This document shows positions 11,932 through 31,174 of a stretch of 46,080 nucleotides of DNA, in pieces. Numbering within the stretch: position 1 is the first letter of the stretch; each line of letters begins with the position of its first letter. Source of the stretch: a virus. A program made the translations under genes and the position numbers. The notes below the pieces were generated by a model that was given only the letters and a program-made list of their open reading frames with translations, had not been told where the DNA came from and made no database searches. Where the stretch lies: positions 1-46,080 of IMG/VR virus record IMGVR_UViG_3300050821_001085; one strand, written 5' to 3'.

Positions 11932-14144
11932 TGCCCGATCCCAATCCGTTTGACCAATTCGATACTGCTCAGGCACCTGCCCCGCCGCCAAATGCTTTCG
12001 ATCAATTTGACCAACCATCGGGAGTGGAACGGACACCGGAAGGCCGATTGAGAATTACGATTGGTCCCAAGCCGTTGCCTGCGGGGGGCAATCCGGGCGG
12101 TTCTAGCATGGGCACGGGGGAAGCCCTCGTTACCGGGCTCAAGCAAGGATTGTCGGCAAATTTCAGCGATGAACTTGCGGGTGTAAATGCGGCGGCTGGC
12201 CTTCCCGATATTGTGGGCAAGACCGTGGGTAGTGCAGCGACGTTGCCGGTCGGTCTTGCCCGATTGGCCTATGAGCACGCAACCGGACAGCCGGGAGAGG
12301 CCACCAAGGCATTTAACGAGACAGTCGCACAGGTCCGCCAGCAGCAGCAGCAGGCCCAGGAAGAACACCCTATTGCGTCCACAGCGGGCAATATCGGCGG
12401 GGCGCTTGCTACCAGCCTGTTGCCGCTAGGGGCGGCTAGTCAGGGAGCATCTTTAGGCGCCAGAATGGGCGCTGGCGCCCTTGCGGGTGGCGCCTATGGG
12501 GCTGCTTATGGAGCGGGGGAAGGTGAAGGCTTAGAGGATAGAGCCCAGCGGGCGGCCACTGGCGGCGCTTTAGGCGCTACTATGGGAGCGGTCGCGCCTC
12601 CAATCCTTTCCGGTGTGGGAGCGGCGGCTAAATTTATAGGAAACCGTGCGGGCGCCCTTCTTGGGCACCCCATACAAGCGTTGCAAGCCAGTAAGGACAT
12701 AGATCAGGCAGCCTCTCAACGGGTTGCCGATCTTCTGAAATACGATGCTCAAAATACTCCAGGCGGAATGTCGGCAAGCGATGTAGCGGCTGCTCATGTG
12801 AGCGGCCAAAGTCCGGTGCTGATGGATTTGGGCAATGCGGCAACTCAGGAAGCCGCCAGAGCCGCTGCCAATACTTCGCCTGCGAGCCGCGCCGCACTCG
12901 AAACTCCGATCAAGGGCCGTTTTGAGGAACAATCACAGCGGGTGTCGGATTTTGTAAAGGGGCTAGTGCCAACTCCTGCCAATGCCGACCGAACGCGAGA
13001 AGCATTAGAACAAGCCGCGCGGCTGGTTAACAAGCCAGCATATGCCAAGGCTTATAGTGCTGGCGATCGGCAGGTATGGACTCCAGAATTGGAGCGATTG
13101 ACGGCGGCTCCATACGTCCAATCGGCATTGCGTGGCGCAATTAGCAAATGGAAGAATTATGCCATCCGCGATGGATTTGGTGCGATGAATCCGCCATTTC
13201 GGGTGGAAAATGGAGGTCTTATTAAAACTGGCGGAAATGGACTTCCGGCTTATCCAAACATTCAATTATGGGATTATGCAGCGAGGGAATTGCAGGATAG
13301 AGCGAGAGCTGCTCCGCGTGGTAGTCAAATTGGCGCTCTCTATAATGATCTTGCCCGGCTATTAAAAACAGAACTCGATAAGGAAGTTCCTGAATATGGT
13401 GCGGCTCGGGCTGGCGCTTCTGCATTTTTTGGTGCCGAGAATGCTTTGGAGGCAGGTCAAAAGTTTGTAAATATGCGCGGTTCTCTAGAGCAGGCGCGGC
13501 AGGCAATCAATAAAATGTCTGCCCCGGAGCGATCTTTGTTTGCGGAGGGCTTTGCCTCCGATTTGGCTGACAAGGTTTCCAAGATAGCCAATAATCGCAA
13601 TGTCACGATTGATCGTATTTTCAATTCACCAGATGGTAAGGCGAGAATCAATCTCGCTTTAGGGCCTAATCGTGCCGGAGAACTGGAAATGTTCCTTCGG
13701 CGTGAAGATGTGATGGATTTGGCGAGAAAGGCTGTTTCTGGCAATAGCACGACGGCTCGCCAACTGATTATGCAATCCCTCGCTAATGCGGGCTCTCATG
13801 GGGCCGTTGGTGCGGGGATTGGCGCGAGCATAGATGAAATCCTTAACGGTGAATTGAATTGGAAGCATGTTCTGTTGGGCGGAATGCTCGTTGGGACCGG
13901 GGTGGCTACGAGTGCGGTTAATGCAAAGCTGGCGCAGAGCATTGCTGAAAAGCTTGCCTCAGACGATCCAAAAGTCTGGCGTGAAGTCTTGCGGATGGCG
14001 GCCAACAACCCTCAAGTCGCAAACACGGTCAAGCGCGGTGAAGCGTTCTTGGAGAAGCTTGTCGGGAGCACGTCTGGTAATCATCCGATGCTTCCAATCA
14101 CCGGCGCATTGCCAGCCGCCGCCGACCAGCAGCAACAGCAATGA
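11931..14144 (+). CDS. P22 gp16-like DNA ejection protein
   Basis: 737 aa, longer than P22 gp16 (about 609). The first 80 residues have a Pro/Phe/Asp-rich repeat (NPFDQFDTAQAP, NAFDQFDQ). Residues about 145-245 are a Gly/Ala-rich, potentially membrane-inserting region (GALATSLLPLGAAS, AGALAGGAYGAAYGAG). The remainder is helical, with another Gly/Ala stretch near residues 620-660 and a Gln-rich C-terminus. Such proteins help move DNA across the inner membrane. It is the third gene of the ejection cluster. Confidence 0.8.
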   Translation: MPDPNPFDQFDTAQAPAPPPNAFDQFDQPSGVERTPEGRLRITIGPKPLPAGGNPGGSSMGTGEALVTGLKQGLSANFSDELAGVNAAAGLPDIVGKTVGSAATLPVGLARLAYEHATGQPGEATKAFNETVAQVRQQQQQAQEEHPIASTAGNIGGALATSLLPLGAASQGASLGARMGAGALAGGAYGAAYGAGEGEGLEDRAQRAATGGALGATMGAVAPPILSGVGAAAKFIGNRAGALLGHPIQALQASKDIDQAASQRVADLLKYDAQNTPGGMSASDVAAAHVSGQSPVLMDLGNAATQEAARAAANTSPASRAALETPIKGRFEEQSQRVSDFVKGLVPTPANADRTREALEQAARLVNKPAYAKAYSAGDRQVWTPELERLTAAPYVQSALRGAISKWKNYAIRDGFGAMNPPFRVENGGLIKTGGNGLPAYPNIQLWDYAARELQDRARAAPRGSQIGALYNDLARLLKTELDKEVPEYGAARAGASAFFGAENALEAGQKFVNMRGSLEQARQAINKMSAPERSLFAEGFASDLADKVSKIANNRNVTIDRIFNSPDGKARINLALGPNRAGELEMFLRREDVMDLARKAVSGNSTTARQLIMQSLANAGSHGAVGAGIGASIDEILNGELNWKHVLLGGMLVGTGVATSAVNAKLAQSIAEKLASDDPKVWREVLRMAANNPQVANTVKRGEAFLEKLVGSTSGNHPMLPITGALPAAADQQQQQ

Positions 14145-27841: not shown

Positions 27842-28615
27842 TTACTCCGCTGCCATCGCATAGGATGCCGGGATCGGCATGGTGCCCTTGCCGGCGGCAA
27901 ACGATTCCCATGCCGTCTGCTCTTGCAGATTGGCAAGGTGGAAGGCGCCGAACATGCCTTTGCGTTCGTTGCGCCACTCGCCGAGGCCCGACGCCATACC
28001 GCTTTCGTTGATCAGGAACGTCAGAGCTTCCGGCGCCAGTACGGACGCATTGAAGCGGCCGGTGATCTTCATGGCCCACACGGTGAACTGGCCGCGATAG
28101 GCAAGGTTCGCGATCTTCTGCAAGCCGCTACCGATCTTCACCATATCCTCCCGCATTTCTGGCTCGCCGCCGTAGATACGGACTAGGGGCATGTCGCAAA
28201 CCGCACCCGAGAGTGCAGGGCGCGTGCGAATCATCTGGGCGTCGATCCATAGCGCCTGCATGACGGACGAACGGGCGATGCCCTTGTCCTTGTGTGCAGA
28301 CGATAAGATGCAGTTCTTGACGCCGGTTGCCGGAAAGCCATAGCTGCCGTCGCCCATTTCGTAGAGGGACGATACAAAGTCCGCCTGCGGGTCGCGGGCT
28401 TCCTTGCCGGCGCGCGTGGCCTTGACCTGCTTTTGCAGCATTTCCAGTTTGGCCTTCTGCGACCAGGCATGAGTAATAAGCGGCGTGTCGCCGACCAGCC
28501 ACAGATGAAAGGACTGGAAAATCGGCTTGGTGGACAAAAGCGCCCCAAGATTGATAGGCTCCTGCGAAACTTCGCGTTTCGACTCAGCTTCGACTGACTT
28601 GGATTTCTTCGGCAC
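27842..28615 (-). CDS. conserved phage protein, first gene of the minus-strand early operon
   Basis: 257 aa from the GTG at 28615, with GGAG 6 nt upstream. Recognisable blocks are FHLWLVGDTPLITHAWSQKAKLEML (about residues 34-58), ARDPQADFVSSLYEMGDGSYGFPATGVKNCIL (about 73-105), then EMREDMVKIG and ending NERKGMFGAFHL. I recognise this as a family common in phages of many hosts, with alternating strands and helices, but no established activity comes to mind. As the first early gene beside two proteins with SSB-like tips, a part in DNA handling is plausible. Confidence 0.7.
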   Translation of the reverse strand: MPKKSKSVEAESKREVSQEPINLGALLSTKPIFQSFHLWLVGDTPLITHAWSQKAKLEMLQKQVKATRAGKEARDPQADFVSSLYEMGDGSYGFPATGVKNCILSSAHKDKGIARSSVMQALWIDAQMIRTRPALSGAVCDMPLVRIYGGEPEMREDMVKIGSGLQKIANLAYRGQFTVWAMKITGRFNASVLAPEALTFLINESGMASGLGEWRNERKGMFGAFHLANLQEQTAWESFAAGKGTMPIPASYAMAAE

Positions 28616-28644
28616 GGCGAACTCCTGTTGTTGTGAGCGCACCG

Positions 28645-28678
28645 TGTCACAGATTGACAGACCCGTCAAGGGTTGTCA
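28645..28678. promoter_or_regulatory. operator-like cluster of TGACA half-sites
   Basis: TGTCA (28645-28649), TGACA (28655-28659) and TGTCA (28674-28678) give two inverted pairs. The outer one reads TGACAGACCC-GTCAA-GGGTTGTCA, nearly symmetrical. TTGACG (minus strand, 28669-28664) could serve as the -35 box of the minus-strand early operon, though no good -10 box follows. The location between divergent genes and overlapping the regulator promoter fits a repressor/Cro-type operator. Confidence 0.6.
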
Positions 28679-28701
28679 GAAACTTTTTTTTAGGCTATGC
28701 A
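28673..28701 (+). promoter_or_regulatory. promoter of the HTH regulator, predicting a leaderless mRNA
   Basis: TTGTCA (28673-28678), 17 nt, TATGCA (28696-28701). Transcription would start at about 28708, which is the A of the regulator ATG. The -35 box lies inside the operator-like dyad, so the product could autoregulate. Confidence 0.5.
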
Positions 28702-28707
28702 GGACGC

Positions 28708-28926
28708 ATGATAACCGCCAAGCAAATTCGCCAAACCCGACTTAGGCTCAACGAAACGCCAGGTGTTTTTGCGAAGCATTTTGGCGTAGCGCGCACGACA
28801 ATTCTCCATTGGGAGAATGGAAATCCTCCAAAATTCGGCCCTACAGTGCAGCATGTCGAACGCGTACTAGCTGAACTGGCTTTTGCCTTTGCGAAGCACC
28901 AACGAGCGCGGGCGGCAGCGGAGTGA
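28708..28926 (+). CDS. small XRE/Cro-like helix-turn-helix regulator
   Basis: 72 aa. TAKQIRQTRLRLNETPGVFAKHFGVARTTILHWENGNPPKFGPTVQHVERVL is a typical Cro/CI-type HTH domain: helix 2 PGVFAKHFGV (residues 18-27), recognition helix RTTILHWENG (29-38). No dimerisation or cleavage domain follows, so it resembles Cro or a short repressor. It is transcribed divergently from the early operon across a shared operator. It probably controls the early/late or lysis decision, as there is no other CI-like gene. Confidence 0.8.
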   Translation: MITAKQIRQTRLRLNETPGVFAKHFGVARTTILHWENGNPPKFGPTVQHVERVLAELAFAFAKHQRARAAAE

Positions 28927-28940
28927 TTGCAATGCAATCA
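28924..28940. promoter_or_regulatory. perfect inverted repeat at the regulator stop codon
   Basis: TGATTGCA and TGCAATCA are exact reverse complements separated by one base. The left arm contains the stop codon of the HTH gene. It looks like a dimeric operator rather than a terminator because it is AT-balanced and lacks a T-tract. Confidence 0.5.
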
Positions 28941-28964
28941 TGGTGGGTGGATGTGCCGTGACCT

Positions 28965-28976
28965 ACTAGGCCTAGT
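28965..28976. promoter_or_regulatory. 12-bp perfect palindrome ACTAGGCCTAGT
   Basis: A perfect dyad, with two more complementary base pairs outside one mismatch. It lies 25 bp after the first dyad in the untranslated control region. A binding site or processing site is possible. Confidence 0.4.
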
Positions 28977-29015
28977 GGGACTTGCAAAATGATAAAATGC
29001 GGCCTAAAAAACGAT

Positions 29016-29044
29016 GCCCGGCTCGGATGGAAGTCCGGCCGGGC
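29016..29044. other. very stable GC-rich hairpin
   Basis: GCCCGGC (29016-29022) pairs with GCCGGGC (29038-29044); an inner CGGA/TCCG stem extends it to 11 bp with one bulge. On the minus strand it is followed by ATCGTTTTTTAGG, so it would terminate leftward transcription entering the regulator; on the plus strand no T-tract follows. It is followed at once by a second perfect stem, TCGCAT/ATGCGA (29048-29053 with 29069-29074). Confidence 0.6.
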
Positions 29045-29140
29045 GGATCGCATTGAGCTTGGCGGCAGATGCGACCTAAGTCCTGGGCCTTATTTATCGT
29101 CTCCGGCCAATCAGGTCAACCTCCGTAAAAATAGCCGCCA

Positions 29141-29310
29141 GCAGGCAGGGTGTAGGGGTTCTTACTCCAGCTCGGATGCCTGTAGTGGTAAATGCCGAGT
29201 ACTGGTTATCGTCCCAAGCCTCGTCCGAAGTGACAGGAACGATAGGCCAGCCCTCCTGCCCTGCACGGTAAATTCCGTGGGGGTAAGGGGGTGCTGGCTT
29301 GAACCCAGCC
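29141..29310 (+). ncRNA. candidate structured RNA with nested helices
   Basis: A closing helix GCAGG(c)AGGG (29141-29150) with CCCTCCTGC (29251-29259) encloses a hairpin CCAGCTCGG/CCGAG(ta)CTGG (29167-29175 with 29195-29205) and a helix TATCGT/ACGATA (29207-29212 with 29239-29244). CTGG at 29202-29205 can pair either backward or with CCAG at 29247-29250, giving two exclusive folds. Two further hairpins follow: CACGG/CCGTG (29264-29268 with 29275-29279) and GCTGG/CCAGC (29293-29297 with 29305-29309). The overlapping frame 28989-29333 has no ribosome site and poor coding character. Class unknown. Confidence 0.5.
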
Positions 29311-29384
29311 TGAACCGAGTGACAGACTGCTAGAAAGGGAAGAAGATTAAGGGCTTAGGAAGGCTCAGAATAGGAAGAAGGAAA

Positions 29385-29470
29385 GAATTTTCCCTCAAAT
29401 CCATATAAAACCTTATCTTCCTGTAGATTTTGGCAAAATTTGGCTGTGGAAACTGTGGAAAACTACTAAA
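29385..29470. other. candidate replication origin: AT-rich DNA with tandem DnaA-box-like 9-mers
   Basis: An A/T-rich stretch (from about 29385) runs into TGTGGAAAC TGTGGAAAA (29445-29453, 29454-29462), two directly abutting 9-mers; the second is one mismatch from the DnaA box TGTGGATAA. The site lies beside the divergent strand switch, where origins are often found, and a perfect box TTATCCACA lies at 30932-30940. No phage initiator was recognised, so host DnaA use is the inference. Confidence 0.4.
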
Positions 29471-29485
29471 ACACAAGGAAACTCA

Positions 29486-29665
29486 ATGGCATACGGCAGT
29501 CGAACTTGTGCAAAACCGACCATCCAATCGCGCTATGAGGCCGCTTGCTTCAAATACCTCCAATATCTATTCCATGGCGAGCCGCCTTGGCGGATTAGGG
29601 AAGCTGCGAAAGACGTATACCGTTATTCGCCCGGCTGGGTCCTCAAATCCGAAACGGTTCACTGA
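29486..29665 (+). CDS. 59-aa hypothetical protein coupled to the m6A methyltransferase
   Basis: AAGGAAACTCA precedes the ATG at 29486, and the stop overlaps the methyltransferase ATG (TGATG). This start and frame are preferred over a TTG frame from 29430 with a 37-bp overlap. The product (AYGSRTCAKPTIQSRYEAACFKYLQYLFHGEPPWRIREAAKDVYRYSPGWV) is basic and aromatic. It may assist the enzyme or bind DNA. Confidence 0.6.
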   Translation: MAYGSRTCAKPTIQSRYEAACFKYLQYLFHGEPPWRIREAAKDVYRYSPGWVLKSETVH

Positions 29666-30343: not shown

Positions 30344-30600
30344 AATGGTCCCCGATCAGCACGGTTCCAAAGGATCGCTACGTTCTTTTGCTGCGCGACG
30401 ATACGCCGGCATGGGATGGTAATATGGACGTGGGCCGATGGTTTGATGACGAACGCGGGGGTTGCTTTTGGTCCAGTGGTGGCCCGAACGGGGGTTTGGA
30501 ACTCAATATGCAGGGATGGGGCAAATACACTCATTGGATGGAATTGCCATCAACGGAGGAAATACATGGGGCGCCCGCGCAAGATCGGCGTGAAACGTGA
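30340..30600 (+). CDS. 86-aa hypothetical protein, DUF551-like
   Basis: ATGA overlap with the membrane gene. The sequence (KWSPISTVPKDRYVLLLRDDTPAWDGNMDVGRWFDDERGGCFWSSGG...THWMELP) follows the DUF551-type pattern W-x-P-I-s-x-x-P, strands, then THWMPLP found in many phage early genes. Function unknown. The C-terminal 10 residues overlap the next gene. Confidence 0.65.
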   Translation: MKWSPISTVPKDRYVLLLRDDTPAWDGNMDVGRWFDDERGGCFWSSGGPNGGLELNMQGWGKYTHWMELPSTEEIHGAPAQDRRET

Positions 30601-31174
30601 TGCAAGTGGCAAATCCAGGGGCAAAATCGGTGGTATCCACCCCGAGACGATCGCCGTTCGGGAACGCGAGCTGCGCAAAGACGGAATAATCCTCCACCAA
30701 ATGCGATACAACGGCGTTTCAGACGTTCCTACATCCACGGCAACCGATGCGAAGGCGGGATTTACCCTTGGTCGGCTACTGCTTTTCCACGAACAAGGGG
30801 ACCATGCACGGGGAATAAACCGCCAGCAATACGAGGCGGGGGATTATTGGGCAAACCTCTGCCGGCGCCATTCGGCGGTAATGGGGTATTCTCTCGGCAT
30901 GAAATCCCCCACGCTCGGCCAGGTCAATGGGTTATCCACAACGGAGCCACTAGAGGAAACAATCCTATTCGTTAGACGGCAATGGTCCAATGCTTACAAT
31001 GGGTTATGTGGACTGATCCCAGATTATAGCGATCGGCCGCTTAAACTCTCGTTCGGGGTATGTGTGGAAAACTGGCCCATAGGGGTTTTGACCGCAAACG
31101 ACTACGGCCTACTGCGGATAGCGTTGAACACGATAGGGCAGGCGCTGGATTTAGGGAAGCAAACGCGAGGTTAA
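30566..31174 (+). CDS. 202-aa basic phage protein (unassigned)
   Basis: A strong GGAGGAAATAC precedes the ATG at 30566. The N-terminal 35 residues are very basic (GRPRKIGVKRDASGKSRGKIGG) and begin with the AT-hook-like core GRPRK. The middle is helical (GFTLGRLLLFHEQGD..RQQYEAGDYWANLCRRHSAVMG), and the C-terminus contains LRIALNTIGQALDLGK. Such proteins precede terminase genes in related rhizobial phages. A DNA-binding role is plausible; a perfect DnaA box lies inside the gene. Confidence 0.65.
   Translation: MGRPRKIGVKRDASGKSRGKIGGIHPETIAVRERELRKDGIILHQMRYNGVSDVPTSTATDAKAGFTLGRLLLFHEQGDHARGINRQQYEAGDYWANLCRRHSAVMGYSLGMKSPTLGQVNGLSTTEPLEETILFVRRQWSNAYNGLCGLIPDYSDRPLKLSFGVCVENWPIGVLTANDYGLLRIALNTIGQALDLGKQTRG
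30932..30940. promoter_or_regulatory. perfect DnaA box TTATCCACA
   Basis: An exact match to the strong DnaA box, inside the coding region of the 202-aa gene. A further one-mismatch copy, TGTGGAAAA, is at 31063-31071. Single boxes can occur by chance, so weight comes only from proximity to the AT-rich tandem boxes and the parS site. Confidence 0.4.

Follow-up and report, generated by a model that had tools for sequence, protein, structure and literature searches.

Orphan structured RNAs tied to phages or to mobile DNA include GOLLD and HEARO. The put RNAs of phage HK022 are about 70 nt long, consist of two stem-loops and occur in two copies (putL and putR) downstream of the PL and PR promoters, where they suppress termination and bind the zinc-binding domain of the RNA polymerase beta' subunit (PMC9378689). 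The phage RNA described here resembles put in lying near early promoters and ahead of any kind of downstream gene. Put acts without a phage protein. Unlike put, the RNA described here is at least 175 nt long, is built of helices P1, P2, P3, P4 and P6 with a pseudoknot and a predicted strand exchange, and occurs once per phage rather than twice; its size and copy number show that it is not itself put, even if a similar mode of action is conceivable. With riboswitches and attenuators it shares mutually exclusive folds that have strands in common, but the gene downstream of it is not conserved, and a terminator or Shine-Dalgarno (SD) platform would be putative only. Like GOLLD and HEARO it is a structured RNA tied to phages and mobile DNA, but it matches neither of them, nor any Rfam family.

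The window, by which we mean the whole stretch of DNA analysed, is a phage record of 46,080 bases with the gene set of a Terminase_3 type phage (Pfam and PHROG profile matches), and the nearest relatives of its terminase include many prophages of Bradyrhizobium and other Rhizobiales. Three close terminase relatives on contigs binned as Omnitrophota, Thaumarchaeota and Mycobacterium (L138, L180 and L198) look like binning errors. Elsewhere in the window, ARAGORN predicts a tRNA-Pro (AGG) at 12392-12491, of an unusual length of 100 nt and unconfirmed by the Rfam tRNA model. Leftward genes stop at about 28669, and a rightward gene for a small HTH regulator occupies 28708-28926 (+ strand; weak Pfam HTH_31 and PHROG transcription-regulator matches, under the Pfam cut-off). 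Between them, 28643-28680 carries repeated TTGACA/CTGTCAA-like half sites, likely operators in the divergent promoter region that separates the HTH gene from the leftward operon. The next plausible gene 3' of the RNA is a 59-aa ORF (29486-29665), with a stop that overlaps the start, at 29665, of a gene for a phage DNA methyltransferase. The gene-free gap of some 560 bp noticed behind the regulator thus measures 559 bp (28927-29485). Codon scores are low in all six frames across it, and indels in the loops of the homologues disrupt any reading frame, so that the protein-coding signal that would have told against an RNA is absent; a 114-aa ORF has no match in Pfam or PHROG, and a search for homologues of the minus-strand open frame from 29330 to 29097 found none. 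About 100 nt upstream of the RNA, folding predicts a GC-rich hairpin (29015-29044, + strand), and all four close members of the family have a similar one (-23 to -27 kcal/mol) at 73-138 nt ahead of the RNA. A protein with a GRPRK motif, homologous by eye, is encoded at 30569-31171 of the window, at 2312-2902 of L219 and at 2199-2792 of L220; in two phages its gene immediately precedes the RNA, in the window it follows at a distance of about 1.3 kb, and the window and L219 copies have no PHROG match.

Rfam 15 at the gathering threshold gave no match in the window, and a permissive scan of the RNA region returned only MIR2118, far under threshold and outside the element; the homologues likewise match no family. 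The element was absent from the first 216 loci gathered through relatives of the neighbouring genes (the methyltransferase, the HTH regulator, the terminase and the 27845-28615 protein) and searched with blastn, nhmmer and tblastx. The translation of a + strand frame, used merely as a route to similar DNA, led in IMG/VR to L218 and L219, which are identical at this locus, and to L220; their DNA matches the window at 29139-29306 (79%) and 29177-29325 (75%), respectively. A covariance model of these first three members found L232 (IMG/VR 3300046462_000393; E 2.3e-12), giving four close members (the window, L219, L220 and L232), and the model of these four matched Rhizobiales chromosomes more weakly, at L240-L243 and L246 (E 1e-5 to 7e-3); these copies have in common with L232 the series GTCCCAT..CCGGCTCC..CAGGA, the P6 hairpin and GAACCCTCCCTCACCA. 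A blastn search with a chromosomal copy matched two GenBank phages (E 8e-30) and a prophage on a Pseudochrobactrum plasmid (E 6e-5). The four-member model matches phage OM868082.1 (L258) at E 1.9e-7, at the same spot as blastn from the chromosomal copy; because model and blastn converge there independently, we regard the window type and the chromosomal and prophage type as one family. The more widely spread form, that of the two GenBank phages, the Rhizobiales chromosomes and the plasmid prophage, is the shorter of the two. The covariance-model search proposed in the initial annotation therefore did yield further members in phages and prophages and, together with the covariation described below, upholds its label of an unclassified structured RNA. 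That the region belongs to a real RNA family is, in our judgement, almost certain. On these searches the family is previously uncatalogued, the novelty being at the level of the family, and a search of the open literature gave no description of the RNA.

The RNA is rare: DNA matches occur in 7 of 397 Rhizobiales genomes, the covariance model found none in 147 Bradyrhizobium genomes, and a core pattern found none in a class sample of 385 genomes and two in a phylum sample of 398, both already known, with nothing new beyond Rhizobiales. Since the genome scans start with a lossy first look, this distribution is a lower bound. Each of the phages G000, G001, G002, G013 and OM868082.1 has one strong match, the only extra matches being weak ones to the element's own complement. 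Two candidates from an IMG/VR pattern scan (L222 and L224) proved to be ordinary coding genes, and five weak model matches (L233, L244, L245, L247 and L249) GC-rich hairpins; all were rejected. The phages OM868082.1 and PP438429.1 are recorded from Synechococcus yet carry, at 74% identity, a copy of an RNA whose other occurrences are in Rhizobiales and phages of Rhizobiales; their host record may deserve checking.

For the segment 29141-29310 the predicted folding energy is -78.4 kcal/mol (z = -3.3), and none of 200 shuffled sequences was as stable. The same z is reached by 1.7% of 542 windows tiled over both strands of the phage, so that folding energy alone cannot carry a claim of structure: the stability exceeds that of shuffled sequence, the comparison suggested at the outset, but not exceptional genome-wide. 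The comparison of homologues is more telling. For a structure comprising P1, P2, P3, P4, P6 and the pseudoknot, scored on an alignment that was fitted to the first model and somewhat favours this structure, 93.4% of helix cells are paired in the four close members (shuffles, 86.8%; slid controls, 41-51%); 12 pairs are changed on both sides (4.8 in shuffles, 0-1 in slid controls), the covariation score is 0.308 (0.200 in shuffles), and none of 500 shuffles reaches the observed value of paired cells, double changes or covariation. The compensatory changes on which the initial annotation had staked its structure are therefore present. Among the paired cells, G-U outnumbers A-C by 24 to 3, from which it follows that the + strand is the RNA. 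Judged by these comparisons, the + strand of 29141-29330 is a structured, non-coding RNA, and the conserved core in the close members is P1, P4, P6 and a pseudoknotted P3.

P4 and P6 are the best supported helices, the evidence for P3 and the pseudoknot being fair and that for P2 weak; all helices are given on the + strand. In the four-member alignment P1 joins GGGT (29148-29151) to ACCC (29303-29306), and being invariant it is only consistent with structure; an outer P1 pairing, CAGG/CCTG, is absent from L232 and was rejected. P2 (29155-29168, GGGGT/ACTCC) has 79% of its cells paired. P3 (29170-29200, GCTCGG/CCGAGT) is replaced in L220 by a wholly different yet complementary stem, GACCGTT/AACGGTC, which is misaligned in the scored alignment. 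Its loop sequence TGCCTG (29177-29182) pairs with CAGGCA (29142-29147) in a conserved pseudoknot that the initial annotation had overlooked; L220 has a C-G to U-G change there, and in L232 both strands have an insertion that adds one C-G pair. P4 (29207-29244, TATCG-TCC/GGA-a-CGATA) has three pairs changed on both sides, and P6, a long hairpin (29245-29299), has seven, with 96% of its cells paired. The 3' strand of P6 contains an SD-like sequence, TAAGGGGGTG (29284-29293), one base off a perfect Shine-Dalgarno sequence and opposite an anti-SD-like strand; an ATG comes immediately after it in L219, and the window has no usable start codon there. The long-range helix first proposed to close the structure (29141-29150 with 29251-29259, GCAGG-C-AGGG/CCCT-CCTGC) exists, but it belongs to the minimum-energy fold only if the RNA is cut at about 29265, the full RNA favouring the much stronger hairpin 29245-29299.

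The idea of two exclusive folds stands in kind, but with other partners. CTGG at 29202-29205 had been proposed to pair either with CCAG at 29167 or with CCAG at 29247-29250; the second pairing is kept by covariation, and the first is not conserved and was rejected (CCAA in L219, missing in L220). The exchange that is conserved is that of strand 2, CCAG (29247-29250), between strand 1, CTGG (29202-29205), and strand 3, CTGG in the 3' strand of P6 (29294-29297). Strands 1, 2 and 3 read CTGG/CCAG/CTGG in the window and L220, ATGG/CCGT/ATGG in L219, ATGG/CCAT/GTGG in L232, TGGC/GCCA/TGGC in L241 and L243, TAGC/GTTA/TAGC in L259 and TTGC/GCAA/TTGC in L258, and thus vary in concert across most of the nine members compared. 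Pairing of each member's own arms exceeds that of arms dealt among members on the 5' side (44 against 38.5, P 0.019) and on the 3' side (57 against 43.5, P 0.0003), P values that are optimistic in that the arms were placed by hand and the members are related, their independence being overrated by shuffling. Of the two partners the upstream one is the less secure, since the best ungapped 5' helix of L258 in this test is in another register (GTTG/TGGC) and L246 shows no pairing of strands 1 and 2. In folding predictions, strands 1 and 2 are paired in truncated RNAs that end ahead of the 3' strand of P6, with more than four expected pairs in six of nine members, and strands 2 and 3 in the full RNAs of eight of nine; the predicted shift from one to the other is strong in six members, weak in L219 and L259 and nil in L246. 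The 5' strand changes partner as well, 29145-29151 (which includes the GGGT of P1) pairing with 29258-29264 in the truncated fold, where L220 has one C-G to U-A change, and GGGT with 29303-29306 in the full fold. Covariation and predicted folds together make a functional strand exchange probable.

All nine members compared also carry two copies of a short repeat at a spacing of about 90 nt, in the loop of P4 and 3' of P1. In the window the copies are AGTGACAG at 29229-29236 (R1) and again at 29318-29325 (R2), just after P1 and 89 nt after R1, both on the + strand. The sequence differs between genomes and the copies are alike within each genome; the summed length of shared runs is 73 against 45.3 in shuffles, none of 20,000 of which was as high. 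A complementary partner in cis is not found above shuffles, and the rest of the window has no more complements than expected by chance. We infer that R1 and R2 may be where the RNA contacts an outside partner.

In several prophages the RNA appears to have a promoter of its own. In L259 it starts beside a leftward recT/exonuclease operon, and its promoter region has ATCAACAT/ATGTTGAT operators, the same as those between the LexA-like repressor and cro genes; the promoter of L240-L242 has AGGTAT..ATACCT palindromes, and a similar site accompanies a nearby Peptidase_S24/HTH repressor gene in L240. Such operators at its promoter would be expected to silence the RNA in lysogeny and to allow its synthesis on induction, and repressor-controlled early expression in the prophage type is, on these sites, quite likely. 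The window, G001, G002 and G013 have the RNA within an operon, and a repressor-controlled promoter would there be hypothetical. The palindrome CTACTAGGCCTAGTGG (28963-28978), which has no second such site in the window, may be an operator at the RNA promoter; no operator common to it and 28622-28707 was found, and nothing links it to the HTH gene. Downstream of the RNA the window, G001 and G002 have a long same-strand structural operon, which in the window includes the terminase and portal genes. The next gene encodes DUF488 in L259 and DUF5131 in L258 (and in L254, by its first residues only); it is a 70-aa ORF before a replication protein in L232 and the 59-aa ORF and methyltransferase in the window, and none is evident in L240-L242. 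The position after the RNA in the prophage-type contexts L254, L258 and L259, with its DUF5131 or DUF488 gene, may be a slot for cargo genes. Scans of the + strand behind the RNA found no intrinsic terminator in the window, L241, L243, L258 or L259, a result that would fit a leader RNA equally well as a separate sRNA.

These contexts bear on what the RNA might do. A cis-acting processive antiterminator like HK022 put, whose nascent RNA binds RNA polymerase and lets it pass the terminators of the downstream operon, would account for an RNA that lies ahead of the long operons of the window and G001/G002, directly after repressor-controlled promoters in L259 and L240-L243, indifferent to the gene that follows and with no terminator behind it, and put does act alone, over 10 kb (PMC9378689). 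The RNA is, however, far larger than put and of another build, is present in a single copy per phage instead of one per early operon, and in L240 and L259 is directed towards the repressor gene and away from the early operon, so that antitermination, although the leading alternative and one to be taken seriously, seems to us a rather unlikely role. The aptamer-like core, the hairpin after it that takes over one core strand and the SD-like sequence within P6 recall a riboswitch-like leader, with P4 and the pseudoknot as aptamer and P6 as expression platform for the next gene. But that gene differs in every context and is missing in L240-L242, and P6 has neither a U-tract nor, in the window, a properly spaced start codon; with no conserved downstream gene, we consider such a leader improbable.

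The long perfect hairpin, the direct repeats R1 and R2 and the location in a phage would also suit a structure acting as DNA, such as a replication origin or a packaging or recombination site, whose palindromes merely resemble RNA helices. The excess of G-U over A-C on one strand, the pseudoknot and the indel-tolerant loops indicate RNA instead, and the position relative to the terminase and replication genes is not fixed, which makes a DNA-level role more improbable still. As for chance folding in a G+C-rich gap, the energy z is matched elsewhere in the phage and homologues of the neighbouring genes lack the element, but the compensatory changes recur in homologues from independent phages and prophages, and the four-member covariation (12 double changes, equalled in 0 of 500 shuffles) refutes it; we give it next to no weight.

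Our first choice, held at slightly under even odds, is an early phage RNA that acts in trans and refolds during its transcription. It is preferred because the RNA appears as a separate, repressor-controlled transcript in several prophages, because the exchange is conserved and because a duplicated contact site lacks a partner in cis; action in trans, taken by itself, we hold to be somewhat short of an even chance. In the nascent RNA, the strand 29247-29250 would pair first with 29202-29205, extending P4; once the 3' half of P6 has been transcribed it would move to 29294-29297, and the 5' GGGT would then pair with ACCC at 29303-29306 to give the final fold, an order of pairing that is supported by covariation and folding. 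The transcript would be early or lytic, kept off in lysogeny by the phage repressor and turned on at infection or induction, and R1 and R2, exposed in the P4 loop and the 3' tail, would contact a host RNA or protein in trans. We therefore offer only tentatively the complete picture of an early RNA family of temperate phages of Rhizobiales and their relatives, acting in trans through phage-specific R1/R2 sequences displayed by a strand-exchange switch. The function of the RNA could still turn out to be of a known kind, for example antitermination. If the picture is right, an undescribed RNA, repressor-controlled in some prophages, would be common to phages of soil bacteria, nitrogen fixers among them, and its refolding mechanism, readable from covariation, would make it a test case for strand exchange in nascent RNA.
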